The notes under the pieces: model-generated
The model's input: the letters and a program-made list of their open reading frames with translations, nothing else
Told to the model about the DNA's origin: nothing
The model's database searches: none
Part shown: positions 1,557-54,067 of the stretch, in pieces
Layout of the letters: each line of letters starts with the position of its first letter
Numbering within the stretch: the first letter of the stretch is position 1
Translations under genes and position numbers: made by a program
NCBI GenBank assembly: GCA_030737835.1
Contig: JAUJYN010000018.1
Location: 3,658,001-3,722,000, forward strand
Direction of reading: 5' to 3'
DNA from: Acorus gramineus
Lineage: Eukaryota > Streptophyta > Magnoliopsida > Acorales > Acoraceae
Length of the DNA: 64,000 nucleotides

Positions 1557-4310
1557 TGTTATATATGTGTCACTTTTAGCCTTCCGGGCACCTTTGGGAC
1601 ATTTCTGGCAGTTTTTCAACTTTTTCTTTTTCGATCGGAACCGCTAAAATTTTGGACTTTTAGCTATTATCATGAGCTTGAGAACTCCGATTGAAAATCT
1701 AACTGCACATTATGTGTCCTGGTGCCATTTCAAACCACTCACGAAAATTTCATCGAATTCCAGTAACGTTCAGAAATTGGCAGTTCCGAAGCATATCCGG
1801 GTTTTGACCGAGCGGGAATGTCAAAGGGAGACTTGACCAAGTCAAAGATGACTTTGACCAAGTCAAGTTTGACCATTGACTTGGTCAAATCATTTTGTTT
1901 GTTAGTGTGGTTAGGTTGACCCAAAGTCAAACACAAAAAACCTAATTTTTTCTAAATGTGTGTGAGTGTGTGTGTGTGTGGCCTTTAAGTGGGCATCCCC
2001 TTCATGTTCATCTTCTCTTCTTCATCTCTCTCACACACAAATCCTCTCATCCCCTCTTGTTATTTCTTTCCATTAGAGGTAGTAGAAGAGGTTGAACAAG
2101 AAAACCCTAGAAGGGAAAAAGATTGGTAAGGGCTTGATCTACCTTCCCATGGTTTTTGTTTTGGATTTCCCCTTTTCTCTACCTCCCTCTCATGGCTTCT
2201 CCTCCCCTGTTTTCAGCCATATTAGGTGTCACGCCCCAGGGCGGCCGTCCCCGGGACGCGACAAGTGTATATATGATATCAGCAGTCTATACAGGAGGTC
2301 AATAACATACTCTAAACAACAGCTAAAATGACAACACAGACAAAAGCAAGGCTTACATGATATATACACAAATAGCGGAAGCTAAAAGACTGAGTCTGTA
2401 AATCAAAAACATATTACAGACTCGATACATACAATCAAAAAGGGATGCTGATAGCCTCTAACACTCGCGGGAATGTGGCGCTGCTCCGCTACTGCTAAAG
2501 TCCCTCGGGGAGCTCCTCCTTCAGATCCGACTCAGTGATAACTGGAGAAAAATATGCGAGGGGTGAGCCACACGCTCAGTGAATATCACAACCCATGCAT
2601 CACAATTCATATTAACCTCAAAATTATTCAAAACCTCAAAGTGGGAACAACTACACAAATTAGTGGGTCTCTCATCGCCAACCCACCACACCCTCACCCT
2701 CACCCTCCAATAGGTGACATGATGGCTATTGGGACTGACTAGACTGTTAATCACCCTTGGTCCACCGATAGTCTCTCCTCCACTCCGTAGCCCGCCTGGT
2801 CTACTCCCACAATTCAGCACAGTCCGAAACCAAATCAGGAGGTACCTACTGATGGGAGCCCTCTGTCAGGACGGCCTGTCTAACGCTGGGGCAGTCTCTA
2901 TACCGATCCAATGAAGGGAACAGAAACAGCCTACCCACACGTATACGATCCAATCGGATCCATTGGCAACATCTTCCTAACATTTCTAATGTCATGAATT
3001 CTTGCGAATTCCTCCAGGGCGCATAACTACGATGCGGGGAAGCCTGTATTATAACCTCATGGTTATAATATTCACTAAGCATGCTCATTACCAATAACTC
3101 ACATTTGATTTAAAATAAATTAAACTAAATGGGACACATGCATAGGTCGAGGCTTCCTAGCATGAAAATATGGTGTCAGGATGCATGGCTCTTACACATA
3201 TCCTAAGGGTGCAAGTCCCTAACATACAAGGTTTAGGGTGGCATGCATACTACATAACAATCATGCCTGCATAGATTACATATTATACAAGTTAATATTA
3301 AACTATGGTGCCCCAGGGGAGGACGATACACGCCAAGAGCATATACGCCTCCCAACTAGGTTGGATTGTCCCACTCACCAATACCCGGGTTGTCGCGTGA
3401 CCGTCCGTCAAGATCTGCAAGACAGGTATTCAACATGGTGAGTAAAATACACAAATACATACAAAAATACACTAAAAATACCCAACACTCGGACAAGCGT
3501 ACATACGGCCCGTACGCACGCGAGCTTGAGTGCCCCGACTAACTCCCGCACCCACGGCAGCCATGCGCACTGTTATATATGTGTCACTTTTAACCTTCTG
3601 GTAACCATTGGAGCATTCTGGCAGTTTTTCGGTTTTTTTCGTTTTTCGATCGGAACCGCTAAAATTTTGGACTGTTAGCTATCGTCCTGAGTTAGAGGAC
3701 TCCGATTGAAAATATAACTGCATATTAGGTGTCCTGGTGCCATTTTAGGCCTCTCACGAAAATTTCATCGAATTCCGGTAACGTTCTGAATTTCACAGTT
3801 TCGGGGCGTATCCGGGTTTTGACCGAGCAAGAAGTCATTGGGAGAGTTGACTTGGTCAAGTGGGCCCATGACTTGGTCAACCCTTTTTGTCTTTTAGTTT
3901 GGTTGGGTTGACCCAAGTCAAATCTCATCTAATCCTCACTTAAGCCTAATTAATCTTGATTAGCCCTAATCCAAGTGAGGTTGACTTTATTTAAGTGAGA
4001 TCTAAAAGCTCTAGCACTATTCATCTTCTTCCCAAAAGTGATTTCTCTCTCCCCCTCTCTCCATTTCTTAGATTTGAGCCTCTTGGAGGGCTTGAAGCTT
4101 AAAACCCATAACATAGAAAGGCTAGATCGGGTCCCGATCTACGCCCCGGTGTTCTCGGATTCGAATTCCGAGAAGTTTGGCCCCTTCATCCCCCCTCTTT
4201 TCTCCCCTGATTTGGGCCATTTCGAGGGCCAAAGGAGATCCCGGCGTTGGAGGCCTTTGGGGAGAGGTTTCGGTGCGCGGAGAGCAACCGAGCATCCTTG
4301 CTTTCCCTTG

Positions 4311-5566
4311 GTAAGCCCTTTTTCCTCTCTTTCCTTGCATAGATGCTTGTTAGGATGATGGTTTTGGGGTTGGGAGGCGGTCGGTGGCTGTGGGTGGCCG
4401 TCGGAGGGCTGTGGGTGGTGGTCGGAGGCCATGGGGGGGGGGGCGGTGGTAGGAGTTGGGTGGTCGGGTAGGGAGATAGGCAGTCCCGGGCAGGGAGGCT
4501 AGCTGTCCCGGGTAGGCTGGGAGCAGGCGCACCAGATTGCCGGGCGCGCGAGCGCGTGCGCGCGGGCGTGCGCTCGGGGGGTGCAGGGGGAGGCGTGCGG
4601 GGTAGGCTGGCTGGGCTGTGCGCGCTGGCAGGCTAGGCGCGCAGGCGTGCTGGGTAGGAGGTGCTCGGGCATCAGGCGGGCAGTGCCCGGGCGTGCAGGC
4701 GAGCGGTGCTCGGGCCACTCGGCGATGCGCACAGGCAAGCAGCACGGGCAGCAGCGCGGGCAGGCTGGCAGGCGCGCTGGGCGCGTGCTGGCAGGCGCGC
4801 TGGGCGCGTGCTGCCAGGCGCGCTGGGCGCGTGTTGCGCGGGCGTGCGCGTGGGCGCTGGGTGAGGGTCCCGGGTGCTGGGCGCTGAGCGCCGGGCGCTG
4901 GGTCGCGGATATTGGGTGCTGGGCGTGGGTGTGCTGGGCGAGGGTGCTGGGCGCTGGGCGTTGGGGCACTGGGGGCTGAGCACCGTGCAGGAGCATACCC
5001 TCGGGGCGCTGGGCAGAGGCACAGGCGTGCGCGCGGTGAGGTGAGCGGGCGGGGTGCGCGTGCAGGGCGCTGCGCTGGGGCGCAGTGCGCACGGGTGCAC
5101 CCGGGGCTGGGTGAGCTGCTGGTCAAGTGGGTGATGCGAGCGGTGGTGCGCACGGGGTGCGTGCGGAGCGAGGCGAGGGCAGCGGAGGTGCGAGCGGGGT
5201 GAGGCGCTGGGCGCGCGGGGCATGCGGTGTGTGTGTGGGCCAGCGCGGGGCGTGCGGTGTGCGCGCGGGTTGCTACGCTGGGGCGCAGTCGGCGCGCGGT
5301 GCACCCGGGGAGCTCGGCGGCGTGTCCAGGTGGCGGGCAGGGACCGGCGGTACGCCTGGGTGCGCGGGCTGAGGCGCGGTGGTGCATCCGGGGTGGGTGA
5401 CTGTGCGGGTGGTTGCCGAGGGTGTGGGAGTGAGTCGGGGTGCTCGGGCTAACGTGCGTACAGGCCGTATGTATGTTTGCCCGAGTGTTGGGTACTTTTA
5501 GAGTGTTTTTGTGTATTTTGTGGTATTTGTGGATTATACTCACCATATTAAATACCTGTCTTGCAG
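4311..5566 (+). other. Intron-like GC-rich core of the LTR at 3571-6999
   Basis: The segment begins CCCTTG/GTAAGCCC and ends CCTGTCTTGCAG/ATCTTGACGG. These edges are conserved in all the long LTRs. The inside is very GC-rich and differs in length and wording from copy to copy. Long Ala/Arg/Pro-rich open frames on both strands are by-products of this composition and not genes. That it is spliced is inference. Confidence 0.5.
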
Positions 5567-6693
5567 ATCTTGACGGACGGTCGCGCGACGACCCAGATAC
5601 CGGTGAGTGGGACGATCCAACCCAGTAGGGAGGCGTTACATGCACTTGGGCGTGTACCGTCCTCCCCTGGGGCATCGTAGTGAATATTAACCTGTTTAAT
5701 GTGAAAACTATGTAAGCATGATAATCTGTAGTATGCATGCCACCCTAGATTGTATGCTAGGGACTTATACCCTTAGGACCCGTATAAGAACCATGCACCC
5801 TGTTATCATGTTTCCATGCTAGGAAAGCCCCGACCGATGCATGTTCCCATTTAGTTTAATTTGTTTAAATAAAATGCGAGCATGTGATTATTAGCCTGTC
5901 TTAGTGAATATTATAGGGGAGGGGCCTCGCGAGGACAGCGGTGAGACCCGGGCTAGGGTACTCCGTGTTCCTTGTTTGGTTGTCGAGATGTCCTATATCG
6001 GGACCTCACGCTGCCCTCCCAAGGATTCTTTCCCCGTTAATATTCCAACCTCTTTATTATTATAATGCATGTTTCCCCGCATCCTGGTTATGCGCCCTGT
6101 TGGAATTCTGAAGAATTCAAGGCATTAGAGTTGTAGAGAGGTGTTGTCGGCGGATCCGAGTGGATCATATGCGTATGGATAGGCTGTTATGTTTCCCTTC
6201 GTTGGATCCGTGTAGAGACTGCCCCAGCGTTGGAAAGGCCGTCCCTTCCGAGGGCTCCCATCAGTAGGCGCCTCCCGATATTTGTGACGGACTGTGCTGA
6301 AGTTGTGGGTGAAGGCCAAGCGGCCTACAGAGTGGAGGAGAGACTATCGGTGGACCAAGGGTGACCAACAGCATAGTCAGTCCCAATATCCTAAGTCACC
6401 TATTGAGGGGTGAGGGTGAGGGTGTGGTGGTTCGGCGATGTACGAACCACTGGATTTATGATGTTATGCCACTTTGAGGCTGGTTGTTGTTTAATTGTGG
6501 TTAATATAGCTGTGATGCATGGGTTGTGCTGTTCACTGAGCGTGTGGCTCACCCCTCGCACAATTGTTTTCTCCAGTTGCCACTGAGCCGGATCAGCAGG
6601 AGGAGCCTTCCGAGGGATTCCTTTAGTAGCGGAGCAGCGCTACGTCCCGCGAGTGTTAGAGGCTATCAGCATCCCTTTTTGGCTGTATGTATT

Positions 6694-6795
6694 TATATGC
6701 GTGCTTGAGCACGCATTTGTATATATTCAGTTGTATATTGTGTATATATGCGTGCTTGAGCACGCATTTGTATATATTCAGTTGTATATTTGTAT
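6694..6795 (+). repeat. 51-bp tandem duplication in an LTR
   Basis: Two near-identical copies with a 51-bp period, each containing the palindrome CGTGCTTGAGCACG followed by TATA-rich sequence. The other LTR-A copies have a single version near their 3' end, so the duplication looks private to this copy. Confidence 0.8.
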
Positions 6796-9739
6796 GATTG
6801 TGTATCGAGTCTGGAGTATGTTTTATTTACAGATTCAGTCTTTCGCTTCCGCATTTGGTGTATATGTCATGTCAGCCTCCTTGTTGTCTGTGTGTCATTC
6901 TAGTTGCTTGTTTATGGTATATTATTGAACTCCTGTGTAGATTCTGATATTATATATACACTTGCCGCGTCACAGGGACGGCCGCCCTGGGGCGTGACAT
7001 GCACGGCCACGCGAACGCGCACGCACGGGTGCGCACGCACGCATGCACGCCCGAGCCCCGGGCGCACTGCCGCGCCCCAGCCCGCGCGCCCAAACGGGCT
7101 GTCGCGCCTCTGCCCGCACGCCCAGACCGCGCGTCCAGCCCCGGGTGCACCCGCGCGCACTGCTCCCCAGCGCAGCACCTCGCGCGCACACCCGCATGCA
7201 CTGCGCCCCAACGCAGCACCCCGCGTGCACCCCGCGCGCACGCCCGCTCGCCTCCCCCGTGCACACCGCACGCAACGCGCCCCTGCGCAGCGCTCCGCGC
7301 GCACGCTGTGCACTGCGCCCAGCGCGCCCGACCGCACGCACCCAGCGAGCCGGACAACACGCGCCCAGCGCGCCTGCCCGCAGCTCGCCTACCTGCGCCT
7401 GCCCGCCTGCGCCTGCCTACCTGTGCGCGTCGGTGAGCCCGCATGCACCCGAGCCAACCCTAACACCTGCAACCGCCCCCAACAGCCTCCTCCAACCACC
7501 CAACAGCCATGCATAACCAAAAACACCTCCTAACATGCATCTAAACAAGAAAAGGAAGGAAAGAAACTCACCCAAGGAGGGGAAGGGAAAGGGAGGAAGA
7601 ACGGGTGCTCTTCGCGCACCAATTTGCCACCTCCAAGACCACCACCACCAAGATCTCCACTCAGCCAAAGAAGGGCTGAAAACAGGGGAGAAAAGAGGAT
7701 ATGAGAGGGGGTCACACATGAGGGAACTCGAAAATGAAACCATGGAAGGATAGATCGGGTCTTTACCTATCTTTTCTCCTTCTAGGGTTTCTCTTTTTAA
7801 CCACCTTAGCTAGATCAAATCAAGGAAATAAGGAGAGGGGAGAGAGAGATTTTGGTGGAGAAGATGATGAATAGGGGAGTGCAACTATTCTTGGTCGTCC
7901 CACTTAAAGCACCCCCACACACACACACACTCACACACTCACCACTCACTTAACTTAGCACTAATTAGGTTTAGGTTAGGTTTAGGGGCACTTTGACTTG
8001 GGTCAACCCATCCACACAAGAAGACAAAGGAGTTGACCAAGTCATGGGCCCACATTGACCAAGTCAAGTCTCCCAATGACTTTTCGCTCGGTCAAAACCC
8101 GGATACGATTCAGAACTGTGAAATTATGAAATGTTACCGGAATTCGAATAAATTTTCTTGGGTGGCTTGAAATGGCACTAGGACACATAATATGCAGTTA
8201 GATTTTCAATCGGAGTCCTCAAACTCAGGATGATAGCTAAAAGTCCAAAATTTTAGCGGTTTCGATCGAAAAACGAAAAAGCTGAAAAACTGCCAAAATG
8301 CTCCAATGGTTACCAAAAGGCTAAAAAGTGACACATATATAACATTAGGGCTGCGGGTGGTCTTGGTGGTGGTGGTCTTGGTGGCGGCTATTTGGTGCGC
8401 GAAGGGCACCCGAGTTCCCTCCCTATCCTTTCCTCTCTTTGCGTAAGCTTTTCTCCTCCCTATGCTTGTTTAAATGCTTGATTAGGGTATGTGATTGGGT
8501 GTGCATGCTTGCATGGGTGTTAGGGGGGTGTGGGAGGGCTGAGGAGGGGGTGGAAGGGGCTCGGGTGCGCGTGCGGGGTCATCCGCGCTCGTGCGCGCGA
8601 GTCTGCGCCCGCAGGCAGGCGCTGGCTCGCGCAGACGGGCGCGCTGGCTGGCGAGCGGGGGTACGCGCTGACGCGCGGGCGTGTGCGCGGAGTGCTGCGC
8701 GGGGGCGCAGTGCTCGCGGAGTGCTCCGCGGGAGCTCAGTGCGAGCGGGTACGCCAGGGCTGGACGCGCGAGTGTGCGCCCGCGCGCGAGCGCGGCAGCT
8801 TGTCTGGGCGCGCAGGCAGGGGCACAGCAGCGCGTCTGGGCGCGCGGGCTAGGGCGCGGCACTGTGCCCGGGGCGCAGGGGCGCGTGCGTGCATGCGTCT
8901 TCGTGCGTGCCGTGCGGGTGGCCGTGCGTATGGCTGCGCGTGGGTTCGGGAGGGTGTCGGGGCACTCGGACTAGCGTGCGTACGCGCGTGCTCGCGTGCA
9001 TGCTGGCCTGTATGCATGCTTGTCCGAGTATTGGGTATTTCTAGTAAATTTATTTATGTATTTGTGTAGTTTACTCATCGTATTGAATGCCTATGTCTTG
9101 CAGATCTTGACGGACAGTCACGCAACGACCCGGGCTTCGCTGAGTGGGGGCAATCCAACCCTGTAGGGATGCGTTCGATGCACGTAGGCGTGCATTGCCC
9201 TCCCCTGTATTAACATGTACTAAATGTAAAGCTATGCATGCATGATAAATATGATATATCCATGCCACCTTAGACTTTGTATGCTAGGGATATGCACCCT
9301 TATATCATGTATAGCGGCCTATGCATGTTTAGTCACCTTGTCCTTTAATTGGAAAGCCCCGAACTATGCATGTTCCCATCTAGTTTAATTTAATTAAATG
9401 AAATGAGAGCATATAGTTACAAGCACGCCTTAGAGGATATTATAACCTTGTTGTTATAATATATGTCTCCCCGCATCTTAGTTATGCGCCCTGGAGGAAT
9501 TCTTGAGAATTCATGACATTAGTAGAGTTACAATCGTTGTCGACGGATCCAAGAGGATCGTATCCATGTGAACAGGCTGTCTTCTCCTTTTGGTTGGATC
9601 CAATGTAGGAACTCCCTGGCGTTAGCTGGCCTGACAGAGTGCTCCCATCTGTAGGTACCTCCGATGCGTCGGATAGTGCTGATCGTGGGAGTATACCAGG
9701 TGGAGGCTACGAGGGTGGGAGAGGCTACCGGGTGGACCG

Positions 9740-12462: not shown

Positions 12463-12478
12463 TTCTCCCCCCCTTAGG
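12463..12478 (-). promoter_or_regulatory. E2 polypurine tract
   Basis: The plus-strand sequence TTCTCCCCCCCTTAGG directly follows the LTR end. Read on the minus strand it is a purine run just before the 3' LTR, the expected second-strand primer. Confidence 0.85.
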
Positions 12479-12509
12479 AAATTTTGTCCTCAAAATAAAT
12501 ACAAGACAT

Positions 12510-15500: not shown

Positions 15501-17238
15501 TACGTCTCGATCGCCCACGAACTGGAAGGACCTCCGACCCGGAAGGTGGAACGACACCGACTTGGCGAAACAGTCGATGCTGGCATGACTAGCTGCAAGC
15601 CAATCCATCCCCAGGATGGCATCAAAGTCTGTCATCGCGAGCTCCACCAGCTCCACTGGAAACTCATGCTCCGCAACCTCTACCGTACACCCTCGGTACA
15701 CAGAACTGAGGAGAATCCGGTCTCCCACGGGCAATGATACCTCCAAGATACCATCCAAAGGGGCGGACGCCACGCCCGTTCGTCTCGCGAAAGCAGGAGA
15801 TCTGAACAGTACCTCTGACCACGCTTCCTGATGCCTGAGCCTCCTCTGCCAAAAGTGCTGCCACTCGGCCCTACACGAACTGAGGCTGGGGAGCAGGGGC
15901 ACGCCTCGCCGGCTGCGCTGGCTGCCTCCTCTGATCAGCACCGCCACCCTGTGGCTGCTGCTGCTGACGCTGAGGCTGCTGCTGCGGCTGGCGCTGAGGC
16001 TGTTGCTGCTGCTGCTGAAACGGCTGCTGCTGCAACTGCTGCTGTTGCTGTGGAGGCATCACTCTGGGTCGGCCAGCGTCGGGGCAATTATACAAGATAT
16101 GCCTGATGCGCTGACAGTGATAACAGCGCCTCGTCTCTGGTCGCCTCGCCTGGACCGGCATTGCTGCGATGGGTGCTGGACCTCGCACTGGCACCGCATC
16201 AGCTGGAGAAGAGGCAGCCGCTGACAGATCAAAACGGGGCCTCTTCTTCTTCCGCTATCCCTGGTCCTGGCTCCTGGGTGGCCTCTGGTCTGCCGATGGG
16301 GTCGAAGTCCTCACGAGGATCCCGAGGTCTCGCTCGATGGTCTTCGCTCGAGACACTAAGTCGGAGTACCTCGAGAAAGCCTGGGAGGTGACGTGCACCC
16401 GAATGGCGCTACTGAGACCAAGCTCAAATCGACGGCACCTCGACTCCTCGTCCATCACCAAAGCTGGAGCGAATCTGGACAGCCTTGTAAAATGCGTGGA
16501 GTAGTCAGCGACAGACATAGTGCCCTGAGTCAGCTGCTCAAACTCCTGCATCACTATCTGTCGCGTCGAGAAGGGGAAGTACTCCTCCAAGAAATACCTC
16601 CGGAATCCCGCCCATGTAAGCTGCTCCAATCCCTCTGGGATGTCCACTGATCTAGTAGCCCACCACTCGGCGGCGCTACCCTTCAGCATAAAAGCGGCCA
16701 GGGAGACTCGCTGGCGGTCGGTGCAAAGCATGGTCGAGAAGATGGTATCCACCTCCATCAACCATCTCTCTGGAGCGAGGGGGTCCTCCGTCTGACCCTG
16801 GAACTCGGGAGGGTGGAGCTTCAGAAAGGCTAAGAGACCACTCTGCTGCACCCTCGCTGCAGCCTCTAGCCCCACCTTCCTCTCCTGAGGATCCTGAACT
16901 CTGTCCGCTGGGACCACCACGGGAACTGGGGGTACATCTGGCACCACGGGTGGATCCGCCACCAGGGGAACCTGCGGAACTGCCTCGCGGGCCGCTCGCA
17001 GCTCCCGAATATCCTGTGCCTGATCTGCCAATACTCTGGTCTAGGCCTCCAATGCCCTGGTCTGTGTCTCCACCAAGTCTGCTATCCGCGCAAACGTGCG
17101 CTCCCAGGCAGGAGGCTCCGGCGTTGATCCTGGCCTCACGGCTGAGGACTCACCAATAGCATCCTCGACTCTGGCAGGTCCGGAGACCTCCAAAGGTCGA
17201 GAGGGACCACGTCCGCGCCGTCCTCTGCGAGGAGGCAT
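12510..17238 (-). pseudogene. E2 gag-pol region (broken)
   Basis: Reading the minus strand from MPPRRGRRGRG at 17238, the order is gag, a CCHC zinc knuckle (CYHCQRIRHILYNC, 16084-16125), a glutamine-rich linker coded by CAG/CTG-type repeats (about 15950-16060), aspartic protease region, reverse transcriptase with FIDD near 14810, RNase H ([16 protein letters not shown]), integrase, and a C-terminal chromodomain ending near 12510. This order and the chromodomain define a chromovirus of the Del/Tekay group. It is a fossil with about six breaks. Near-identity to E6 suggests both descend from one recently active subfamily. Confidence 0.9.
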
Positions 17239-17341
17239 ATCAGCAACCTAAGAAAACCAGACACTAGGATCAGAATACTCATATAGAAATCCTAGGACTC
17301 ATCTCTACGAAAAAGAAGACAATTGGCTCTGACAAGACCAA

Positions 17342-17354
17342 GCTCTGATACCAA
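17342..17354 (-). promoter_or_regulatory. E2 primer-binding site (initiator tRNA-Met)
   Basis: The plus strand reads GCTCTGATACCAA. Its complement TTGGTATCAGAGC matches the 3' end of plant initiator tRNA-Met, the usual primer for this lineage. It lies a few bases from the 5' LTR edge at 17359. Confidence 0.88.
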
Positions 17355-21890: not shown

Positions 21891-22255
21891 CGGGCCGCCC
21901 GTAGCTCCTGGATCTCTCGTGCCTGATCAGCTAACGCCCTAGTATGGGCCTCCAGTGCCCTAGTCTGAGTCTCCCACTAGATTTGCGATACGAGCGTAAG
22001 CACGCTCCCATGCAGAAGGCTCCTGCGCTGGTCCTGGCCCAATAGCCGAGGACCCTCCAGTAGACTCCTCGCCTCTGGTAGGTTCGGAAACCTCCAAGGG
22101 CCGAGGGGGACCACGTCCACGCTTTCCTCTATGAGGAGGCATATCAGCAACCTAAGAAAACAGACACTAGGATCAGAATACTCATATAGAAATCCTAGGA
22201 CTCATCTCTAAGAAAACAATTGGCTCTGACAGGACCAGGCTCTGATACCAACTTT

Positions 22256-25532: not shown

Positions 25533-28277
25533 ACATTCTTCCCCCCTTAGGAAATTTAGTCCTCGAAATTTAAGGAAACCCAAAGGGAAGACCGAATATA
25601 GCAAGTATCACGCATAGACCTTTTGCTCCCAAGTGGTCTTCGCACCGGACTGGCGCTACCAACACACTATAATCAAAGGAACGGTCTTAGCGTGGAGCCT
25701 CTTCTCATGTTGTCCTTGACCTCGATCCACTGCTCCATGGACGACAAATCCACCTCGAGGATGAGGCGGTCGAACAGAATGACATGAGCAGGATCGTGGA
25801 CATAACGCCTCGGCCATGAGACAAGGACGACGTCGTGGGCATGAGCCAGCTATGGGGGAAAGGCTACATGATAAGCCACCTCCCCAATCCACTCAATGAC
25901 GAGAAACAGTCCCATTAAAGAGCCAACTCATCTTGCCCCGAACGCCGAAATGGAGGGTGCCCTTAAACCAGGACACCTTCTCAAAAATATGATCGCAAAA
26001 CCCAAAGGTTAGCTCCTGGCGACGATGACCTGCGTAGCCCTTCTGTCGGTTCTGGGAGGTGCAGATGTACACACGAACCAACCTGGCCACCGCAAGGTCA
26101 AACAACTAACATATGGCCCCTCCAACTGACGCCCCTCAACCGTCCCAACACAAGGGAGGTATAAAATCGCGCCTATAGAGTGCCTTTCACAGATCCATCT
26201 GGGTGCTCGAATGGCAGTCGTCTTGCAAGCATACCCCAACAAATGGGTGGTGCCTCACCCAACTGCCCTCATCATCGAGCACGCAGGCACTTAGCATGTC
26301 CTCCAAGGTCTGAATCGTCCTCTTTGCCCGGCTGTCCATCGACGGTGAAACGCTATACTTAAATGGAGGCTCACGCCAAAGCCTGTCAAGGCTGCGCTAC
26401 AACCTCAAAGTAACCCTCGCGTCTCAACCGAAAATAACGCCGACTGGAGTGCCATGAAGACAAACAATCGCGAAGGTGAAAACCCACGTCAAGGCGTCCA
26501 GAGACTCAATCAGTCAGATTAGGGAGGGAAGCACGGACTTAGTCAATCGGTCATTGATCACCTAGACGGCGTCATGACCCGAACGTGACATTAGCGAGTC
26601 CGCAACAATCCTTGATAACCCACTCCCACATGCACTGAGGAATCTCAATGGACTGACGCTTTCCACTCAATGACGATTCTTGAATTTTGCCCGAGGGCAT
26701 GCCAACCTGGGGAAACAAAGTCACCCATATCACCTTTTCATCGCACTACTAGCAATCTCTATGAAGACTACCCCAAAGTAGTCCATGAAAGCCCAATAAA
26801 CTTTTTGAGATCCACGAAGGCATCCGGTGCATTCGTCAACCGCGACGGTAGTACTTAAAGCTCGTAGTGCCTGAACGGTCACGAAAGGCCATCTACGGGA
26901 TGTCTAACTCCCGGATCTCCGACTTGTGGTACCCTTGTGCGAAGATCGATCTAACAGCAGACACTCGCTCCCAGAGCTGGTCAAACAGATCATCGATTCG
27001 CGGCAAAGGTAATTGATCTTCAACCTCCACGGGGAGATCAAAACAACACCTTGAACAATTAAGTCCAAATTCTGCTCCTCGAGCATGGCTGGCGCTCATG
27101 ATGACACTTACACGCTTCATAAGCTACTCAACCGCACTTAATCCACAAGACACGCAATAAGGGGTCGTCGAACCTCAACAATGCCTATGCGACGTCATCT
27201 ATCTGATAGGGCGGTTGAGTCCCATCACGAACGCTAGCATCGCGTCTCCTTATTTCCGACCAATGTGGGGCAAAACACGACAATATCCATAACTGTGCTT
27301 CACATGCCACCAGAGATAGGTCGCTCATCTATAACCATTGGAACTCCAGCATCCTGCACTCCATGGGCAGATTCATCACAGGGAGTCCACGCTCTCGACA
27401 TCATCCAGTAGCACTCTCCCGGTGTGGCCTCTACCTGGTAGCCTCCCAAGCCTACTATCTCTGCCATATGGGCGCACCAACAAGCATAGTACCTAGGAGC
27501 ACCTCACAGGGCTCTAGCCTCAACCGGGCAGCTACAGCTCACAATGATATATCGAAGCGACTCTAGATGCCACTATGGAACCCTGTCCACAAGCAATCGC
27601 CCACCAAGCTGCAATAGGATGCACCCAATCCCGATCGTACGCATCACCACTCGCTACAGCACCTTCCAAGTGAGAGGAAAATCCATCATCAATTTGATGC
27701 TTCAAAGGTATTCCTTGACTGGGAAAAGAACCTTGGGAGGGCACCATGAGCTCCCGATATAGGATATCCCGACAACCAAACAAGGAACACGGAGTACCCT
27801 AGCCCGGGTCTCAACGCTGACCCTGCAAGGCCCCTTAATCCTGAGTAGGAAGACTAGAAGAAGACATCATCCCTTAATGAGCAATACGCCACATCCTCAA
27901 CACTTTACACTGGCGCCGCACGCGAACTCCATGGTTACCAGCAATACCGATGCACGGGAAAGAAGCTCCATTTTCGAGACGCAATCTATACCTTAGAAAT
28001 TGCGACCAATTCATCACTATCACACTACTAGGCTAGAATCTCCTACCCAAGCCTTAATCCCACAACAAGGGATCCAACAACTGACCCTAACTAGTCGACC
28101 CAGTCGACAACTTAAGGGTGGGTCCAGGGGGTCACGTCCACGTCAACGGATGCGAGGAGGCATGTCAGCAACCTAAGATATACCTCTAAAACAAGAGTAC
28201 TCGGATGCAATCCTACGACTCATCATCTATACGACTAGACTTAGGCTCTGACAGGACCAGGCTCTGATACCAACTTT
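25533..28277 (-). pseudogene. E4 internal region (decayed gag-pol)
   Basis: From left to right on the plus strand there is a polypurine tract (25533-25548), chromodomain and integrase C-terminal sequence (about 25600-26110), integrase core traces (to about 26660), a reverse transcriptase trace ([10 protein letters not shown] near 27000), a stretch without recognisable domains (27120-27710), an LTR-like segment (27715-27835), another unclear stretch, a gag-start trace near 28160 and a primer-binding site (28259-28272). Identity to E2 is still plain in places, but the whole is a fossil. Confidence 0.75.
27715..27835 (-). repeat. LTR-A-like segment inside the E4 internal region
   Basis: About 120 bp (GACTGGGAAAAGAACCTTGG onward to GGCCCCTTAATCC) closely matches an LTR-A module found near 44170-44300 and 52100-52220. 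It has no LTR termini, so it is a captured or recombined fragment and not a separate insertion. Confidence 0.7.
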
Positions 28278-41971: not shown

Positions 41972-41989
41972 CCTACCCCCCTTAAACAG

Positions 41990-43177: not shown

Positions 43178-46146
43178 TGTCACGCCCCAGGGCGGCGGTC
43201 CCCGGGACGCGGCAAGTGTATATATGATATCAGTCTAAAGAGGAGTTCAATAATATACTCACGCAACAGTTAAAAATGACAACACAGATGAAGACAAAGC
43301 TGACATGATATATACACAGATAGCGGAAGCTAAAAGATGGAGTCTGTAATCCAAAAATATACTACAGACTCGATACATAAACAAACGTCTTGTGAGTGCC
43401 AATATACACAATACAACCAAATACAATCCAAACTGGGTGCCCAAGCACAGAAATATATACATACAATAAAAAGGATGCTGATGGCCTCAAAAACTCGCGG
43501 GACGTAGCGCTACTCCGCTACTGGTGCAGTCGCTCAGGGAGCTCCTCCTTCAGGTCCGCCTCAGTAATCACTGGAGAAAATAATTACGCGAGGGGTGAGC
43601 CACATGCTCAGTGAATAGCACAACCCATGCATCACAGTTATATTAACCACAATTAATCAACAACCAGCCTCAAAGTGGCATAACAACATAAATCCAGTGG
43701 TTCGTTACATCGCCGAACCACCACACCCTCACCCTCACCCCTCAATAGGTGACATAGGATATTGGGACTTATTAGCCTGATAAACATCCATACACATCCA
43801 TACACATCCATACACCCTCACCCTCACCCCTCAATAGGTGACATAGGATATTGGGACTGACTAGGCTGTTAATCACCCTTGGTCCACCGATAGCCTCTCC
43901 TCCACACCGTAGCTCGCCTGGTCTACTCCCACATTCAGCACAGTCCGAAACCAAAATCAGGAGGTGCCTACTGATGGGAGCCCTCTGTCAGGACGGCCTG
44001 TCTAACGCTGAGGAGTCCTTACACGGATCCAACGAAGGGAAGAGAAACAGCCTACCCACACGCATATGATCCACTCGGATCCGCTGACAACACATCTCTA
44101 CAACTCTAGTGTCTTGAATTCATCAGAATTCCTCCAGGGCGCATAACCAAGATGCGGGGAACATGCATTAATATAGACGGGAAAAGAAACCTTGGGAGGG
44201 CACCATGAGGTCCCGATATAGGACATCCCGACAACCAAACAAGGAACACGGAGCACCCTAGCCCGGGTCTCAATGTTGACCTCGCAAGGCCCCTTAATAT
44301 TCCCTAAGGCATGCTTTAATATTACAAGTTGCATTTAATTTAACAAATTAAACTAGTAGGACGCATACATAGGCCGAGGCTTTCCTAGCATGATAACAAG
44401 GTGACAAGATGCATGGCTCTTACACAACCTAAGGGTGCAAGTCCCTAACATACTCAGTCTAGGGTAGCATGCATACTACATATCAATCATGCTTGCAGGT
44501 TAATATTAATCTATGGTGCCCCAGGGGAGGACGGTATATGCCCAAGTGCATATAGCACCTCCCAACTGGGTTGGATTGTCCCACTCACCGGTAATCGGGT
44601 CATCGCGCGACCGTCCGTCAAGATCTGCAAGACAGGGTGATAAACCTGGTGAGTAAAATACACAAAAATACGCTAAAAATACCCAACACTCGGACAAGCG
44701 CACATACGGCCTGTACGCGCGTGAGCCCGAGCACCCGACTCACTCCCGAACCCTCGGCAACCACCCGCACGGCCACCCGCCCCCGGATGCACCGCCGCAC
44801 CCCAGCCCGCGCACCCAGGCGCCCTGCCGAGCCCCTGCCCGCACGCCAGGACACGCCACCGAGCTCCCCGGGTGCACCGCGCGCTCACTGCGCCCCAGCG
44901 CAGCAGCCCGCGCGCACACCGCACGCCCCGCGCCCAGCGCCTCGCCCCTCGTGCACCCCGCGCGCACCATCGGCCTCGCCTCACCGCGCGCGCACAGCAC
45001 GCCTGCGCCCCTGCGCAGTGCTCCGCGCGCACGCTCCCGCACGGCGCCTGTGCCCAGCGCCCAGCGTCCAGCGCCCCCAGCATCCAGCACACCCGCGCCC
45101 AGCACACACGCCCAGCACACGCGCTCCAGCTCCACCCGAGCGCACGCCCGCACGCATGTCCGCGCGCATGCGCGCGCGTGACCTGCCACTGCACACCTGC
45201 TGCGCCTGCCTGCTGCGTTGCCTGTGCTGTCTGATGCCTGAGACAGCCACCACCCTGCCCGAGCACCTCTCCACCACCCACTGGCCACCAATGGCCTCCG
45301 ATCGCCACTAACCACCACCGACCACCACCAACAGCCCCAACAGCCACCACACACCCAAAACCCCCTCCTAACAAGCATCTAAGCAAGAAAAGGAAGGAAA
45401 GAGAGCTTACCCAAGGGAAAGGAAGGGGACCGGGAGCTCTTCGTGCACCGAAACGCCTCCCCAAAGCCTCCACCACCGAGCTCTTCCTCAGCCCTCGAAA
45501 TGGCTGAAATCAGGGGAGAAAAGAGGGGGTAAGAGGGGGTCAAACAAGTGGGAACTCGAATCCGAGACCACCCGTAGATAGATCGGGATGAGATCTAACC
45601 TTTCTATGCTTTGAGTTTTGAGTTTCAAGCCTCTAGGTAGCTCAAAATAAGAAAAAGAGAGGGGGAGAGAAAAAATTTGAGAAGATGATGAATAGTGGGG
45701 GGCAAATTTAGCTCTCACTTATATAAGTCAACATACTTAGATTAGGGTTAAACAAGGATTAATTAGGGCTAAGAGAAGGTTTAAGTGGGATTTGACTTGG
45801 GTCAACCCAACCACACAAAAAAACAAAAAGGGTTGACCAAGTCATGGGCCCACTTTGACCGAGTCAACTCTCCCAATGACTTCTCGCTCGGTCAAAACCC
45901 GGATACGCCCCGAAAGTGTGAAATTTCTGAAACGTTACCGGAATTCGATGAAATTTTTGTGAGTGGCTTAACATGGCACCAGGACACATAATATGCAGTT
46001 AGATTTTCAATCGGAGTCCTCAAACACAGGACGATAGCTAACAGTCCAAAATTTTAGCGGTTCCGATCGAAAAACGAAAAAAACTCAAAAACTGCCAGAA
46101 TGCTCCAATGGTTACCAAAAAGGCAAAAAGTGACACATATATAACA
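43178..46146 (-). repeat. E6 3' LTR (LTR-A)
   Basis: TGTCACGCCCCAGGGCGG to GTGACACATATATAACA. Acceptor-like (44625) and donor-like (45410) signals enclose a 786-bp GC-rich core. A TATATAAG box lies near 45720 (minus). A small tandem ACATCCATAC repeat lies near 43790-43815. Confidence 0.93.
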
Positions 46147-46162
46147 TTCTCCCCCCCTTAGG
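46147..46162 (-). promoter_or_regulatory. E6 polypurine tract
   Basis: TTCTCCCCCCCTTAGG on the plus strand, directly beside the 3' LTR, identical to that of E2. Confidence 0.88.
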
Positions 46163-46194
46163 AAATTTTGTCCTCAAAATAAATACAAGAACAT

Positions 46195-49100
46195 CTAAGA
46201 AGGGAAAAGATGCGGATACGCGTCACGCATGGCGTCCTCGAGCTCCCAAGTGGCCTCGGCACCGGAACGGTGCTGCCATCGCACCTTGACCAGCTGGACG
46301 GTCTTGGTGCGGAGCCTCTTCTCGCGGCGGTCCAGGATCTCAATCGGCTGCTCAACGAAAGACAAGTCCGGCTCGAAGACGAGCGGCTCGAACGGGATGA
46401 CGTGAGCAGGATCGTGGACATATCGCCTCAGCTGCGAGACATGGAAGACGTCATGAGCCTGAGCCAACTGTGGGGGCAGAGCTATGCGATAGGCCACCTC
46501 TCCAACTCGCTCGAGGATGAGGAACGGCCCAATGAAACGCGGACTCAGCTTGCCCCGCACACCGAAACGGAAGATGCCCTTCATCGGGGACACCTTCAAG
46601 AAGACATGGTCACCAACCTCGAAGGTGAGCTCACGGCGACGACGGTCGGCGTAGCACTTCTGACGACTCTGAGCGACTCGGATACGCTCGCGAATCGTCT
46701 TCACCATCTCTGAGGTCTGGTGAACGATCTCTGGTCCCTCCAACTGGCGCTCTCCGACCTCGTCACCTGCAGCTGCGGCCATAGAGTGCCTCGTAAGGAG
46801 CCATCCGGATGCTCGAGTGGTAGCTGTTGTTGTAGGCAAACTCCACCAACGGAAGGTGCCTCTCCCAACTGCCCCCAAAATCGAGAACACAGGCTCGCAG
46901 CATGTCCTCAAGAGTCTGGATCGTCCTCTGACTGGCCGTCCGTCTGCGGATGAAACGCTGTACTGAAATGGAGGTTCGTACCAAGGGCGTGCTGGAGGCT
47001 ACGCCAGAACCTCGAAGTAAAACGCGCGTCTCGATCGGAAATGATGCTGACTGGAGTGCCATGGAGACGGACAATCTCGGAGACAAATAACTGCGCCAGG
47101 GTGTCCAGAGAATCGGTGAGTCGGATGGGGAGGAAATGAGCAGACTTCGTCAGCCGGTCGACGATCACCCAGATGGCATCGCGACCCGAACGTGACCTCG
47201 GCAAACCCGAGACGAAGTCCATGGTGATCTGCTCCCACTTCCACTGAGGGATCTCAATGGACTGCAGCTTCCCCGCAGGGCGCTGATGCTCCGACTTCAC
47301 CTGCTGGCATACTAGGCATCGGGCAACGAAACGGGCAATATCCGTCTTCATCCCGCGCCACCAGTAGGCCCGACGAAGGCCCCTGTACATCTTCGTGCCA
47401 CCAGGATGCACTGTGTACCTCGAGCGATGGGCCTCGTCCAGAATCTTCCGCTTCAGCTCTGCGTCGTCGGGAATGCACACTCGGCCTCTGAATCGCAGGA
47501 TCCCGTCCGCGCGAATCTGGTAGTCCGGACGCTCGCCCCGGGCGACGCCTTCAGAGAGGACTATAAAATGCGGATCCTGAGCCTGAGCCGTGCGGATATC
47601 GTCGAGAAGGACTGGCTGCACCACTAGCCTGGCCAAAAAGCCACCAGCAGGAGTCTCTCGAACGCTGATCCAGCAAGCGGCCTCCTCCAGAAGCCTCCAA
47701 CGACGGACAGCCATGTGGGCGGCCATGCCCAAGGGCTGCCTACTGAGCGCATCTGCCACGACATTCGCCTTACCCGGATGGTAAGCGATGTCACAATCAT
47801 AGTCCGTCAGGAACTCAACCCAACGTCTCTGACGCATGTTGAGCTCCGGCTGGGACTGCAATATGTCAAGCTCTTATGATCGGTAAAGAGCTCGAACTCC
47901 TCTCCATAGAGGTAATGCCTCCACATCTTCAGCGCAAAGATGATCGCTGCCAACTTCAGGTCGTGGGTGGGGTAATTCTGCTCATGGGGCTTCAACTGAC
48001 GAGACGCGTAAGCCACAACCTTACCGTGCTGCATCAGGACGCAACCCACACCCAACTGCGATGCATCGTGTAAACTGCGAACCCACCACTCCCAGACGGA
48101 AGGGTAAGAACTGGCGCTGAGGTGAGCCTTCGCTTCAGCTCCTGGAAGCTCTCCTCGCAAGCAGGGGACCACTCGAACCGAACATCCTTCCGAGTGAGGC
48201 GGGTAAGAGGAACGGCTATCTTCGAGAAACCCTCGACAAACCTCCTGTAATAACCCGCCAAGCCCAAGAAGCTCCGAATCTCTGTGGGGTTCGACGGTCG
48301 ACGCCAATTCGACACGGCGAGCGTCTTCTCCGGGTCCACAGATATGCCCTCACCGGAAATCACATGGCCCAGAAAGGCCATACGCTCCAACCAGAACTCG
48401 CACTTGCTGAACTTGGCGAACAACTGATGTCTGGCCAAAGTCTCCAAGACAGTGCGAAGATGGTGAGCGTGCTCCTCAAGACTCCTCGAGTACACCAATA
48501 TGTCATCGATGAATACTACCACAAAGGAGTCGAGGAAGGGCCGAAACACCCGGTTCATCAGATCCATGAAGGCCGCCGGCGCGTTCGTCAACCCGAATGG
48601 CAGTACTCTGAACTCGTAGTGCCCATACCGGGTGCGAAAGGCCGTCTTCGGAATGTCTGACTCCCGGATCTTCAGCTGGTAGTACCCGAGCGGAGATCGA
48701 TCTTGGAAAAGACACGCGCTCCCTGGAGCTGGTCAAACAGATCGTCGATCCGCGGCAACGGGTACTTGTTCTTCACTGTCCGTTTATTCAGCTGCCTGTA
48801 ATCAATACACAGCCGCAGCGAACCGTCCTTCTTCCGGACGAACAGGACAGGGGCTCCCCACGGAGAAACACTCGGACGTGCGAAGCCCTTCTCCAGCAAC
48901 TCCTCCAACTGCTCCTTGAGCACCCTCAGCTCTGCAGGGGCCATCCGGTACGGAGCTCTCGAAATCGGCTCGGTCCCCGGAATCAGATTGATCTCAAACT
49001 CGATCGCGCGATCCGGCGGTAATCCCGGAAGATCATCGGGGAAAACCTCGGGATACTCTGCCACGACCGGAGTCTGACTGATATCTGCCTGCAGCGGTGC

Positions 49101-50992
49101 ATCCTCCTGAGCAATGTACGCTAGAAAGCCCTCGCATCCTCCCTGAAGGAGTCTCCACGCCTGCATGGACGACACGAACCCCAAAGGGGCTACGTCACGA
49201 TCGCCCACGAACTGGAAGGACCTCCGACCCGGAAGGTGGAAAGACACCGACTTGGCAAAACAGTCGATGCTGGCATGACTAGCTGCAAGCCAATCCATTC
49301 CCAGGATGGCATCAAAGTCCGTCATCGCGAGCTCCACCAACTCCACTGGAAACTCATGCTCCGCAACCTCTACCGTACACCCTCGGTACACAGAACGGAG
49401 GAGAATACGGTCTCCTACGGGCAATGATATCTCCAAGATAGCATCTAAAGGGGCGGACGCCACGCCCGTCCGTCTCGCGAAAGCGGGAGACACGAACGAG
49501 TGTGTGGCTCCGGAATCAAACAACACATATGCAGGGAGCTGGGAGATCTGAACAATACCTCTGACCACGCTGCCTGATGCCTGAGCCTCCTCTGCTGAAA
49601 GCGCTGCCACTCGGCCCTGCACGAACTGCGGCTGAGGAGCAGGGGCACGCCTCGCCGGCTGCGCTGGCTGCCTCCTCTGGTCAACATGGCCACCCCGTGG
49701 CTGCTGCTGACGCTGAGGCTGCTGCTGCGGCTGGCGCTGAGGCTGCTGCTGCTACTGGCGCTGCTGCTGGAACGGCTGTTAAACGGCTGCTGCTGCAACT
49801 GCTGCTGCTGCGGAGGCATCACTCGGGGTCGGCCAGCATCAGGGCAATTATACAAGATATGCCCGATGCGCTGACAGTGATAACAGCGCCGCGACTCTGG
49901 TCGCCTCGCCTGGACCGGCACTACTGCGATGGGTGCTGGACCTCGCGCTGGCACCACATCTACTGGAGGAGGGCAGCCGCTGACCGATCAAAGCGGGCCC
50001 TCTTCTTCCTGCGCTGTCCCTGGTCCTGGCTCCTGGGTGGCCTTTGATCTGCCGAAGGGGTCGAACACGAGGATCCCGAGGTCTCGCTCGACTGTCTTCG
50101 CTCGAGACACCAAGTCGGAGTACCTCGTGAATGCCTGGGAGGTAACATGCACCCGAATGGCGCTGCTGAGGCCAAGCTCGAATCGACGGCACCTCGTCTC
50201 CTCGTCCATCACCAAGGCTGGAGCAAATCTGGATAGCCTCGTGAAGCGCGTGGAGTAGTCAGCGACGGACATAGAGCCCTGTGTCAGCTGCTCAAACTCC
50301 CGCATCACGATCTGCCGCGTCGAGAACGGGAAGTACTCCTCCAAGAAATACCTCCGGAACCCCGCCCATAAAAGCTGCTCCACTCCCTCCGGGATGTCCA
50401 CTGATCTAGTAGCCCACCAGTCGGCGGCGCTACCCTTCAGCATAAAAGTGGCCAGGGAGACTCGCTGGCGATCGGTGCAAAGCATGGTCGAGAAGATCGC
50501 ATCCACCTCCATCAACCATCGCTCTGGGGCAAGGGGATCAGCCGTCTGACCATGAAACTCGGGAGGATGGAGCTTCAGAAAGGCGCTAAGACCACTCTGG
50601 TGCACCCTCGCTGCCGCCTCCAGCTCCACCTCCCTCTCCTGGCGATCCTGAACTCTCGCCGTCGGAACAACCATAGGGACTGGGGGTACATCGGGTACCA
50701 CAGGTGGATCTGCCACCAAGGGGACCTGCGGAACTGCCTCGCGGGCCGCCCGCAGCTCCTGAATCTCCCGTGCCTGCTCTGCCAACACCCTCGTCTGGGC
50801 CTCCAATGCCCTGGTCTGCGTCTCCACCAAATCTGCTATCCGCGCAAACGCGCGCTCCCAGGCAGGAGGCTCCTGTGCCGATCCTGGCCTCACGGCTGAG
50901 GACTCCCCAGTAGCATCCTCGCCTCTGGCAGGTCCGAAAACCTCCAAAGGTCGAGAGGGACCTCGTCCACGCCGTCCTCTGCGAGGAGGCAT
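46195..50992 (-). pseudogene. E6 gag-pol region (broken)
   Basis: Minus-strand order from MPPRRGRRGRG at 50992 is gag, CCHC knuckle (CYHCQRIGHILYNC, 49844-49885), a glutamine-rich linker (about 49690-49810), aspartic protease ([13 protein letters not shown] near 49515), reverse transcriptase (FIDD at 48502-48513), RNase H (TDHKSLTY), integrase with zinc-binding and DDE motifs (about 46900-47600), and a C-terminal chromodomain (about 46200-46400). Family and order are as in E2. About six breaks are spread over the region. Confidence 0.92.
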
Positions 50993-51093
50993 ATCAGCAA
51001 CCTAAGAAAACCAGACACTAGGATCAGAATACTCATATAGAAATCCTAGGACTCATCTCTACGAAAGAAGACAATTGGCTCTGACAGGACCAG

Positions 51094-51106
51094 GCCCTGA
51101 TACCAA
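51094..51106 (-). promoter_or_regulatory. E6 primer-binding site
   Basis: CCCTGATACCAAC on the plus strand, the complement of the initiator tRNA-Met 3' end, four bases from the 5' LTR edge. Confidence 0.85.
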
Positions 51107-51110
51107 CTTT

Positions 51111-54067
51111 TGTCACGCCCCAGGGCGGCCGTCCCTGGGACGCGACAAGTGTATATATGATATCAGTAAACAAGAGTTCAATAACATACTCACACAACAG
51201 TTAAAAATGACAACACAGAGGCTGACATGATATATACACAGATAGCGGAAGCTAAAAGACTGAGTCTGTAATCCAAAAACATACTACAGACTCGATACAT
51301 AATCAAACGTCCTGTGAGAGCCAATATACATAATACATCAAAATACAATCCAACTGGGTGCCCAAGCACAGAATATATACATACAATAGAAAAGGGTGCT
51401 GATGGCCTCAAAAACTCGCGGGACGTGGCGCTACTCCGCTACTGGTGCAGTCGCTCAGGGAGCTCCTCCTTCAGGTCCGCCTCAGTAATCACTGGAGAAA
51501 ATAATTACGCGAGGGGTGAGCCACATGCTCAGTGAATAGCACAACCCATGCATCACAGTATATATCAACCACCATTAATCAGCAAAAGCCTCAAAGTGGC
51601 ATAACAACATAAATCCAGTGGTTCGTTACATCGCCGAACCACTACACCCTCACCCTCACCCCTCAATAGGTGACATAGGATATTGGGACTTATTAGCCTG
51701 ATAAACATCCATACACATCCATACACATCCATACACCCTCACCCTCACCCCTCGATAGGTGACATAGGATATTGGGACTGACTAGGCTGTTAATCACCCT
51801 TGGTCCACCGATAGCCTCTCCTCCACACCGTAGCTCGCCTGGTCTACTCCCACATTCAGCACAGTCCGAAACCAAAATTAGGAGGTGCCTACTGATGGGA
51901 GCCCTCTGTCAGGACGGTCTGTCTAACGCTGAGGAGTCCCTACACGGATCCAACGAAGGGAAGAGAAACAGCCTACCCACACGCATATGATCCACTTGGA
52001 TCCGCTGACAACACATCTCTACAACTCTAGTGTCTTGAATTCATCAGAATTCCTCCAGGGCGCATAACCAAGATGTAGGGAACATGCATTAATATAGACG
52101 GGAAAAGAAACCTTGGGAGGGCACCATGAGGTCCCGATATAGGACATCCCGACAACCAAACAAGGAACACGGAGCACCCTAGCCCGGGTCTCAATGTTGA
52201 CCTCGCAAGGCCCCTTAATATTCTCTAAGGCATGCTATAATATTACCAGTTGCATTTAATTTAACAAATTAAACTAGTAGGACGCATACATAGGCCGAGG
52301 CTTTCCTAGCATGATAACAAGGTGACAAGATGCATGGCTCTTACACAACCTAAGGGTGCAAGTCCCTAACATACTCAGTCTAGGGTAGCATGCATACTAC
52401 ATATCAATCATGCTTGCATGGATTACATATTAAATAGGTTAATATTAATCTATGGTGCCCCAGGGGAGGACGGTATACGCCCAAGTGCATATAGCGCCTC
52501 CCAACTGGGTTGGATTGTCCCACTCACCGGTAATCGGGTCGTCGCGCGACCGTCCGTCTAGACCTGCAAGACAGGGTGATGAACCTGGTGAGTAAAATAC
52601 ACAAAATACGCTAAAAATACCCAACACTCGGACAAGCGCACATGCGGCCTGTGCGCGCGCGACCCCGAGCACCCCGACTCACTTCCGAACCCTCGGCAAC
52701 CACCCGCACGGCCACCCGCCCCTGGATGCACCGCCGCGCCCCAGCCCGCGCACCCAAGCGCCCTGCCGAGCCCCTGCCCGCACGCCAGGACACGCCGCCG
52801 AGCTCCCAGGGTGCACCGCGCGCTCACTGCGCCCCAGCGCAGCAGCCCGCACGCACACCGCACGCCCAGCGCCTCGCCCCGCGTGCACCACCGGCCTCGC
52901 CTCACCGCGCGTGCACAGCACGCCTGTGCCCCTGCGCAGCGCTCCGCACGCACGCCCCCGCACGGCACCCTGCGCGCAGCGCCCCAGCGCCCACGACCAG
53001 CGCCCAGCGTCCAGTGCACCCGCGCCCAGCACACGTGCCCAGCAGCCCTCCAGCTCCACCCGAGCGCACGCCCGCGCGCACGCGCGCGCGCGCCCTGCCA
53101 CTGCACGCCTGCTGCGCCTACCTGCTGCGCTGCCTGTGCTGCCTGCTGCCCGAGACAGCCAACCACCCTGCCCGAGCACCTTTCCACCACCCACCGGCCA
53201 CTAGTGGCCTCCGACCGCCCCTAACCACCACTGACCACCACCAACAGCCCCCAACAGCCACCACACACCCAAAACCCCCGCCTAACAAGCATCTAAGCAA
53301 GAAAAGGAAGGAAAGAGAGCTTACCCAAGGAAAGGAGAGGAAGAGAAGGGAACCGGGAGCTCTTCGGGCACCGAAACGCCTCCCCAAAGCCCTCCACCAC
53401 CGAGCTCTTCCTCAGCCCTCGAAATGGCTGAAATCAGGGGAGAAAAAAAGGGGTAAGAACAAGTGGGAACTCGAATCCGAGACCACCCATAGATAGATCG
53501 GGATGAGATCTAACCTTTCTATACTTTGAGTTTTGAGTTTCAAGCCCTCTAGGTAGCTCAAAATCAAGAAAAAGAGAGAGGGGGAGAGAGAAAAACCATT
53601 TGAGAAGATGATGAATAGTGGGGGGCAAATTTAGCTCTCACTTAAATAAGTCAACCACTTAGATTAGGGTTAACCAAGCTTAATTAGGGCTAAGAGAGGT
53701 TTTAAGTGGGATTTGACTTGGGTCAACCCAACCACACAAAAAAAACAAAAAGGGTTGACCAAGTCATGGGTCCACTTTGACCGAGTCAACTCTCCCAATG
53801 ACTTCTCGCTCGGTCAAAACCCGGATACGCCCCGGAACTGTGAAATTTCTGAAACGTTACCGGAATTCGATAAAATTTTCGTGAGTGGCTTAAAATGGCA
53901 CCAGGACACATAATATGCAGTTAGATTTTTAATCGGAGTCCTCAAACACAGGACGATAGCTAACAGTCTAAAATTTTAGCGGTTCCGATCGAAAAACGAA
54001 AAAAACTCAAAAACTGCCAGAATGCTCCAATGGTTACCATAAGGCTAAAAGTGACACATATATAACA
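51111..54067 (-). repeat. E6 5' LTR (LTR-A)
   Basis: 2,957 bp and collinear with the 3' LTR at 43178-46146. Acceptor-like (52564) and donor-like (53324) signals enclose a 761-bp core. It ends at 54067 beside the right GTTGT copy. Confidence 0.93.

Follow-up and report, generated by a model that had tools for sequence, protein, structure and literature searches.

Conserved splice-site-like signals in the long terminal repeats of a Ty3/gypsy retrotransposon family from Acorus gramineus and a predicted leader with two introns

The stretch of DNA analysed here comprises 64,000 nucleotides (nt) of the Acorus gramineus genome (assembly GCA_030737835.1, contig JAUJYN010000018.1, positions 3,658,001 to 3,722,000) and is called the window in the following. 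It contains eleven long terminal repeats (LTRs, labelled L1 to L11) of a chromodomain-bearing Ty3/gypsy retrotransposon family, and the sequence of this one 64-kb window from one species is the evidence base of the present analysis. In the open reading frames of two copies plus a third, Pfam detects gag, aspartic protease, reverse transcriptase (RT)-RNase H and integrase in gypsy order, followed by the chromodomain, whose matches are significant (3.7e-4 and 7.2e-4) with scores (20.8 and 19.9 bits) under the curated cut-off of 25.1. From LTR length, primer-binding site (PBS) and gag start we take this family to be Tekay/Del-like. One member, element A, possesses both LTRs, is bordered at either side by the 5-bp target duplication GTTGT and contains pieces of gag, protease, RT, integrase and chromodomain. 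The single LTRs L1, L2 and L8 are accompanied by identical or almost identical duplications (TTAGG/TTAGG, CGCAC/TGCAC and GTTCA/CTTCA, respectively). The LTR front at 1557-2226 and the remainder from 8345 form one LTR (L3) split by an insertion with the 5-bp duplication TTAGG. Between 1557 and 9738 three LTRs of this family are nested in alternating orientation, i.e., L2 within L1 within the LTR starting at 1557.

In a preliminary description of this DNA it was claimed that a splice donor and an acceptor flank a variable GC-rich core in every long LTR. All eleven pairs are present (Table 1, in which an acceptor is given by the position of the G in its AG), and "every" holds within the family, the extra LTR start at 1557-2226 being the front of the split L3. 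The first donor (D1) reads GTRAGY in all copies (GTAAGC in six, GTAAGT in two, GTGAGT in two and GTGAGC in one). The first acceptor (A1) is always CAG, with GCAG in 10 of the 11 LTRs and CCAG in L7, and is followed by ATCT in all copies except L11, which has GTCT (52564). Likewise the bracketed length was given correctly: it amounts to 504-1256 nt in the ten uninterrupted copies, while the eleventh (7571-3415) contains a nested LTR. A branch-point-like site of the type YTNAY (spelled CTCAC, CTCAT or CTGAC) lies 24-26 nt before A1 in ten copies, and a TATA-like box is located 303-361 nt before D1 in 9/11 LTRs; among the eleven LTRs checked no such box was found for L9, and the front of L3 lies past the insertion. 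With its GT donor, branch site, AG acceptor and proper spacing the bracketed segment, designated intron 1, has the make-up of a U2-type intron.

The preliminary description overlooked a short putative exon behind A1, a second donor (D2) and a second acceptor (A2) beyond the PBS. The position of D2 is found 36 nt past A1 in nine LTRs (37 nt in L6 and 39 nt in L9), and its sequence is GTGAGT in 10/11 and CTGAGT in L3. Downstream of the PBS, A2 shows the sequence CTTAG/GTTGCTGAYATG (the slash marks the predicted splice position) and is situated 9 nt before the gag ATG in all four leaders that retain the PBS. It is kept also in the leader of the divergent subfamily, although the preceding stretch has changed, and CTGAT occurs 21-22 nt before A2 in three of the four leaders. 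The predicted intron 2 of element A contains the remaining U5, the LTR end (~51111) and the PBS, and in the unspliced RNA of this element the TAG of A2 closes the gag frame immediately upstream. A further conserved acceptor-like site, TTTTCTCCAG/TGATTACTG, is seen in U5 on the minus strand (51491 and 43570) in 8/8 rows; it could represent an alternative acceptor within intron 2.

Table 1. Element A, its predicted leader structure and the corresponding signals in related copies (positions within the window)
Feature	Position	Strand	Remarks
Element A	43178..54067	minus	both LTRs present; self-comparison, Pfam, ends and duplication
Predicted exon 1 of element A	53325..53619	minus	TATA-like box TATTTAAG at ~53648; transcription start inferred
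Predicted intron 1 of element A (L11)	52564..53324	minus	GTAAGC...TTGCAG; GC 71%
Predicted exon 2 of element A	52528..52563	minus	36 nt
Predicted intron 2 of element A	51002..52527	minus	GTGAGT...TTTTCTTAG
PBS core	51097..51105	minus	TGGTATCAG; within predicted intron 2
Predicted exon 3 start of element A	50992..51001	minus	GTTGCTGAT, then gag ATG (A = 50992)
A2 of another copy	17236..17254	minus	TTCTTAG/GTTGCTGATATG; first exon base 17247
A2 of another copy	22140..22158	minus	first exon base 22151
A2 of divergent subfamily	28161..28179	minus	ATCTTAG/GTTGCTGACATG; first exon base 28172
Intron 1 of L1	3415..7571	minus	interrupted by L2; D2 at 3378
Intron 1 of L2	4311..5566	plus	nested LTR 3571-6999; D2 at 5603
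Intron 1 of L3	8443..9103	plus	D2 position broken (CTGAGT), at 9140
Intron 1 of L4	11234..11737	minus	D2 at 11197
Intron 1 of L5	20452..21302	minus	D2 at 20415
Intron 1 of L6	24041..24697	minus	D2 at 24003; exon 2 of 37 nt
Intron 1 of L7	30260..30893	minus	D2 at 30223; weak A1, branch-point A gone
Intron 1 of L8	33360..34131	plus	single LTR 32587-35400; D2 at 34168
Intron 1 of L9	35886..36397	minus	D2 at 35846; exon 2 of 39 nt
Intron 1 of L10	44625..45410	minus	3' LTR of element A; D2 at 44588

An alignment test run on the 11 LTRs was favourable to the view that these sites are better conserved than their surroundings. All 11 rows share the column of D1, of which 4/6 columns are invariant and the others show only A/G and C/T, compared with 5/39 invariant flank columns; the invariant columns are 3/3 for CAG at A1 and 5/6 for D2. 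Pooling D1, CAG and D2 gives 12 of 15 invariant columns versus 27 of 105 in the flanks (P 8e-5, each flank column counted once and the branch site omitted) or, if all six A1 columns are used, 14 of 18. Because the sites were picked after being seen and both rows and columns are related, P values serve as guides only. Between A1 and the end of the LTR 43 GT columns are conserved on the two strands together, of which D2 has the highest score by splice-site weights; among 37 conserved AG columns A1 takes second place, after the TTTTCTCCAG site further down U5. A composite rule, drawn up only after the pattern was seen and comprising donor, branch site, acceptor, short exon and second donor, is matched at the predicted place in 9/10 LTRs tested. 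Altogether there are 14 sense matches (5 of them elsewhere) and one antisense match, whereas 200 local shuffles gave 2.1 matches on average and 7 at most.

In element A the unspliced leader of 2627 nt has 51 ATGs, 47 of them in intron 2 alone, whereas predicted splicing would leave 295 + 36 + 9 = 340 nt with two ATGs, both in exon 1. The predicted exon 1 is devoid of ATGs in L2, L4, L5 and L10 and exon 2 in 7/11 LTRs. We considered exon 2 as a coding extension of gag, its frame 0 being open in 6 of the 7 copies translated, but rejected this idea in view of a stop in L11 and four first exons without ATG. In the divergent subfamily (exon 2 at 24004-24040, 30224-30259 and 35847-35885) two of the three ATGs of L7 are in a frame that continues into gag, and in this copy Gag might start in exon 2.

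In its middle part, intron 1 is rich in G and poor in A, and many copies contain short tandem arrays there. According to the preliminary description this core drifts freely while the edges stay, which calls for caution. Between the two LTRs of element A divergence is highest in the core (8.2%), lower in U3 together with exon 1 (4.8%) and lowest over the part that starts with exon 2 and runs to the end of the LTR (2.7%), and the pair L6/L7 agrees (intron 1 9.4%, upstream 2.9%). In the pair L1/L8, however, U3 plus exon 1 differs more (10.7%) than the compared part of intron 1 (9.4%). The observed/expected (o/e) ratio of CpG in the cores is 0.86-1.32; in element A the segments 44756-45290 and 52695-53204 have a CpG o/e near 1, yet they are the most divergent part of an LTR pair of equal age. 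The assumption that the core is shielded from methylation, suggested by this ratio, was dropped, CpG-type changes making up about half (20/41) of the recent core differences of element A. Genes in sense or antisense direction were also considered: the longest open stretches reach 106-404 codons in 10/11 cores, and 6 of 20 cases lie above the 95% line of shuffles, while no case surpasses the maximum obtained in 100 shuffles. The coverage of the cores by putative G-quadruplex blocks is partly above and partly below the shuffle mean and in no case exceeds the shuffle maximum, and this candidate was rejected as well. The seven LTRs scanned have no poly(A) signal in common, and no Rfam match was obtained.

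From the order of these elements it appears that the transcript leader probably carries two spliceosomal introns. The preliminary description had already proposed an intron in the transcribed leader; the sites and their distance from the TATA-like box agree with this proposal, but it had seen only the first of two introns. Introns are the best fit to a donor and a branch-like site that vary within their consensus and to the spacing from the TATA-like box, and this reading is partly supported. We infer that transcription would start about 30 nt downstream of the TATA-like box and that the RNA would be spliced at intron 1, which with its U-richer edges and GC-rich core would reside entirely inside the LTR, and, after the 36-nt exon, at intron 2, which would span the following LTR part, the LTR end and the PBS. 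Fully spliced RNA, with a leader of about 340 nt and few or no upstream ATGs, would act as mRNA, whereas unspliced RNA would retain the PBS and act as genome. RNA lacking intron 2 could not be tRNA-primed at the PBS, and copying would be limited to RNA that retains this intron. Fully spliced RNA would not be copied and therefore the introns would persist in new LTRs. The preliminary description had pointed out that new LTRs would lose the core if spliced genomic RNA were copied, and that unspliced RNA must be the template; the removal of the PBS together with the remaining U5 by intron 2 would be a natural answer to this paradox. RNA spliced only at intron 1 could still be copied and would yield LTRs without core; intron 1 is kept in all 11 LTRs, including single LTRs with target duplications, and none is without core.

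More tentatively, we consider it quite possible that this retrotransposon sorts its RNA by leader splicing into an ATG-poor, fully spliced mRNA and an unspliced genome, with a PBS inside an intron barring all fully spliced messages from replication, and that the long LTRs of this lineage are long because they bear introns. If true, this would be a simple means of separating message from genome in one lineage, and it predicts junctions that could be sought in long-read RNA of plants rich in such elements.

Several observations weigh against two leader introns. The support comes from the DNA sequence of a single species and the LTR copies are related, hence 11 rows are fewer than 11 independent cases. 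In plants the U content of introns is in general about 15% higher than that of exons (PMC3735527), but intron 1 is not U-rich relative to its flanking exons: it has 18-27% T and 39-49% G in 10/11 copies, although its edges (first 120 plus last 130 nt) reach 30-42% T; the portion of intron 2 inside the LTR has 29-33% T. Alignments of the whole upstream section left the D1 donors in different columns, while with randomly trimmed ends they fell into one column in 10 of 12 alignments. In the seven LTRs scored D1 ranks 1-9 among 225-286 GT sites, D2 ranks 1-4, and A1 ranks 3-8 among 144-228 AG sites with the exception of L7 (rank 50); antisense donors score equal or higher. The conserved U5 acceptor (51491/43570) outscores A1, and an acceptor at 51058/17304 outscores A2 in two of the four leaders. 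Exon 1 has 9 ATGs compared to 21.5 expected from shuffles (9/11 LTRs), but the depletion is not special to this exon because U3 is also low (23 versus 37.8 expected, 6 LTRs). Exon 2 carries three ATGs each in L6, L7 and L9, which form the divergent subfamily, and one in L10. Due to these three ATGs the spliced leader of the divergent subfamily would not be ATG-free; splicing would still remove most of the upstream ATGs.

Another explanation would be that the edges are promoter, RNA-structure or packaging elements with incidental splice-like motifs and that the core consists of fast-changing short tandem repeats, in which the cores are indeed rich. Behind A1 conservation is not limited to the motifs but reaches far past them (131 columns are invariant among 511 without gaps), and a plain count of conserved splice-like motifs gives no more on the sense than on the antisense strand (GTRAGY 1 sense versus 1 antisense, acceptors 2 sense versus 3 antisense). 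However, the bases that vary in D1 and, in 10/11 copies, in the branch site are all allowed by the splicing consensus, and the full series of signals (donor, branch site, acceptor, donor, acceptor) is present, its last acceptor lying where gag starts. We regard this explanation as unlikely. Somewhat less likely still is a single splicing step from D1 or D2 straight to A2, in which the 36-nt exon is skipped or optional and both the short leader and the loss of the PBS are unchanged. D1 and A2 would suffice alone for this purpose, and A1 is weak in L7 and D2 broken in L3, but A1, branch site and D2 are retained together in nine of the 11 copies and no other conserved donor in the section of D2 is as strong. 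That the signals are unused ancestral leftovers, or are used for short non-coding or host-gene chimeric transcripts instead of gag expression, is very improbable: the copies look old (2.7-8.2% difference between LTR segments of element A) and signals or spacing are impaired in L3, L6 and L7, but the sites are still held by strongly differing subfamilies and damage is confined to single copies.

No leader intron is described for any element of Tekay, which also includes RIRE3, in the titles and abstract beginnings among the matches listed, subscription papers being mostly outside the coverage. This literature is consistent with the statement of the preliminary description that such a module has not been described in this lineage, but the idea itself was in print in 2005 for another lineage, in a study on Diaspora (PMC1142308). 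This soybean Ty3/gypsy element, a relative of Athila/Calypso, likewise has a very long leader, and for it donors were predicted within the LTR and acceptors on either side of the gag start. In contrast with the Acorus family, the accessible text presents medium-confidence predictions for one element without a conservation test, and its authors call their relevance unknown (PMC1142308). According to the same text, introns located upstream of gag had not been reported from retroviruses or LTR elements of any kind, and the great LTR length of BAGY-1 and RIRE3 is named there as puzzling (PMC1142308); Bagy-1 and Del are assigned to Tekay (PMC6317226).

Plant LTR elements are generally free of introns, with exceptions including Ogre and EVADE (PMC12786077, a review of 2025). 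In barley BARE1, a Ty1/copia element, splicing also splits the RNA into pools for translation and replication, but its intron, demonstrated by RT-PCR, has 104 nt, lies at the end of gag outside the leader and stops pol (PMC3735527). Other spliced plant gypsy elements are Bagy2 (env RNA) and CRR (rt removed) (PMC3735527). EVD (EVADE) and Ogre are similar as plant LTR elements with functional introns and two RNA forms; in EVD the protease region after gag is removed, and in the accessible parts of the sources neither the intron of EVD nor that of Ogre is described in the leader (PMC12786077, PMC6317226). The introns predicted here end 9 nt before the gag ATG and are not located inside or between coding regions as in BARE1, EVD and Ogre. 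Cauliflower mosaic virus and rice tungro bacilliform virus resemble the Acorus family in having a splice donor in a long leader that bears upstream open reading frames and also houses the Met-tRNA primer site, but their spliced RNAs serve downstream reading frames and the first one is reached by ribosome shunting (PMC5902531). Among expressed elements of sunflower Tekay is absent or under-represented (PMC7730604, PMC9784723), and leader introns are not mentioned in the accessible parts of three further papers (PMC2832683, PMC2829016, PMC9289625).

In the viral and genome contig collections searched no usable relative from another plant was found. Queries with RT, gag and integrase revealed no relatives in the viral contig collection, and four of its contigs with the PBS pattern, which had nothing retrotransposon-like beside it in the stretch viewed, were taken as chance matches. 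The genome contig collection yielded two related loci (L001 and L002), L002 being 48% identical, and a search of both assemblies with gag was negative for one and revealed four weak matches (19-27% identity) in the other. L001 (BMWJ01000031.1, 3816 bp) ends ~0.45 kb into its LTR before any donor. It belongs to an assembly of Streptomyces clavifer and its retrotransposon pol is 66% identical to the plant-type pol of the present family, which is likely contamination. The contigs L002 and G002 belong to a metagenome-assembled genome of Trichormus, whose Ty3/gypsy-like sequence probably stems from eukaryotic DNA that entered the bin.

The window harbours also a second family with long LTRs, present in two copies of 91% identity on the minus strand (54441-56927 and 39497-41970). 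Its strongest donor, AAG/GTAAGT (41009) or AAG/GTAAGA (55953), is located 960-975 nt into the LTR and followed by a T-rich stretch. Possibly this family shares the leader design and leader donors extend beyond one family, two copies being too few for a conservation test. Finally, a 62-bp tandem repeat with 2.6 copies (37489-37648) adjoins LTR L9.

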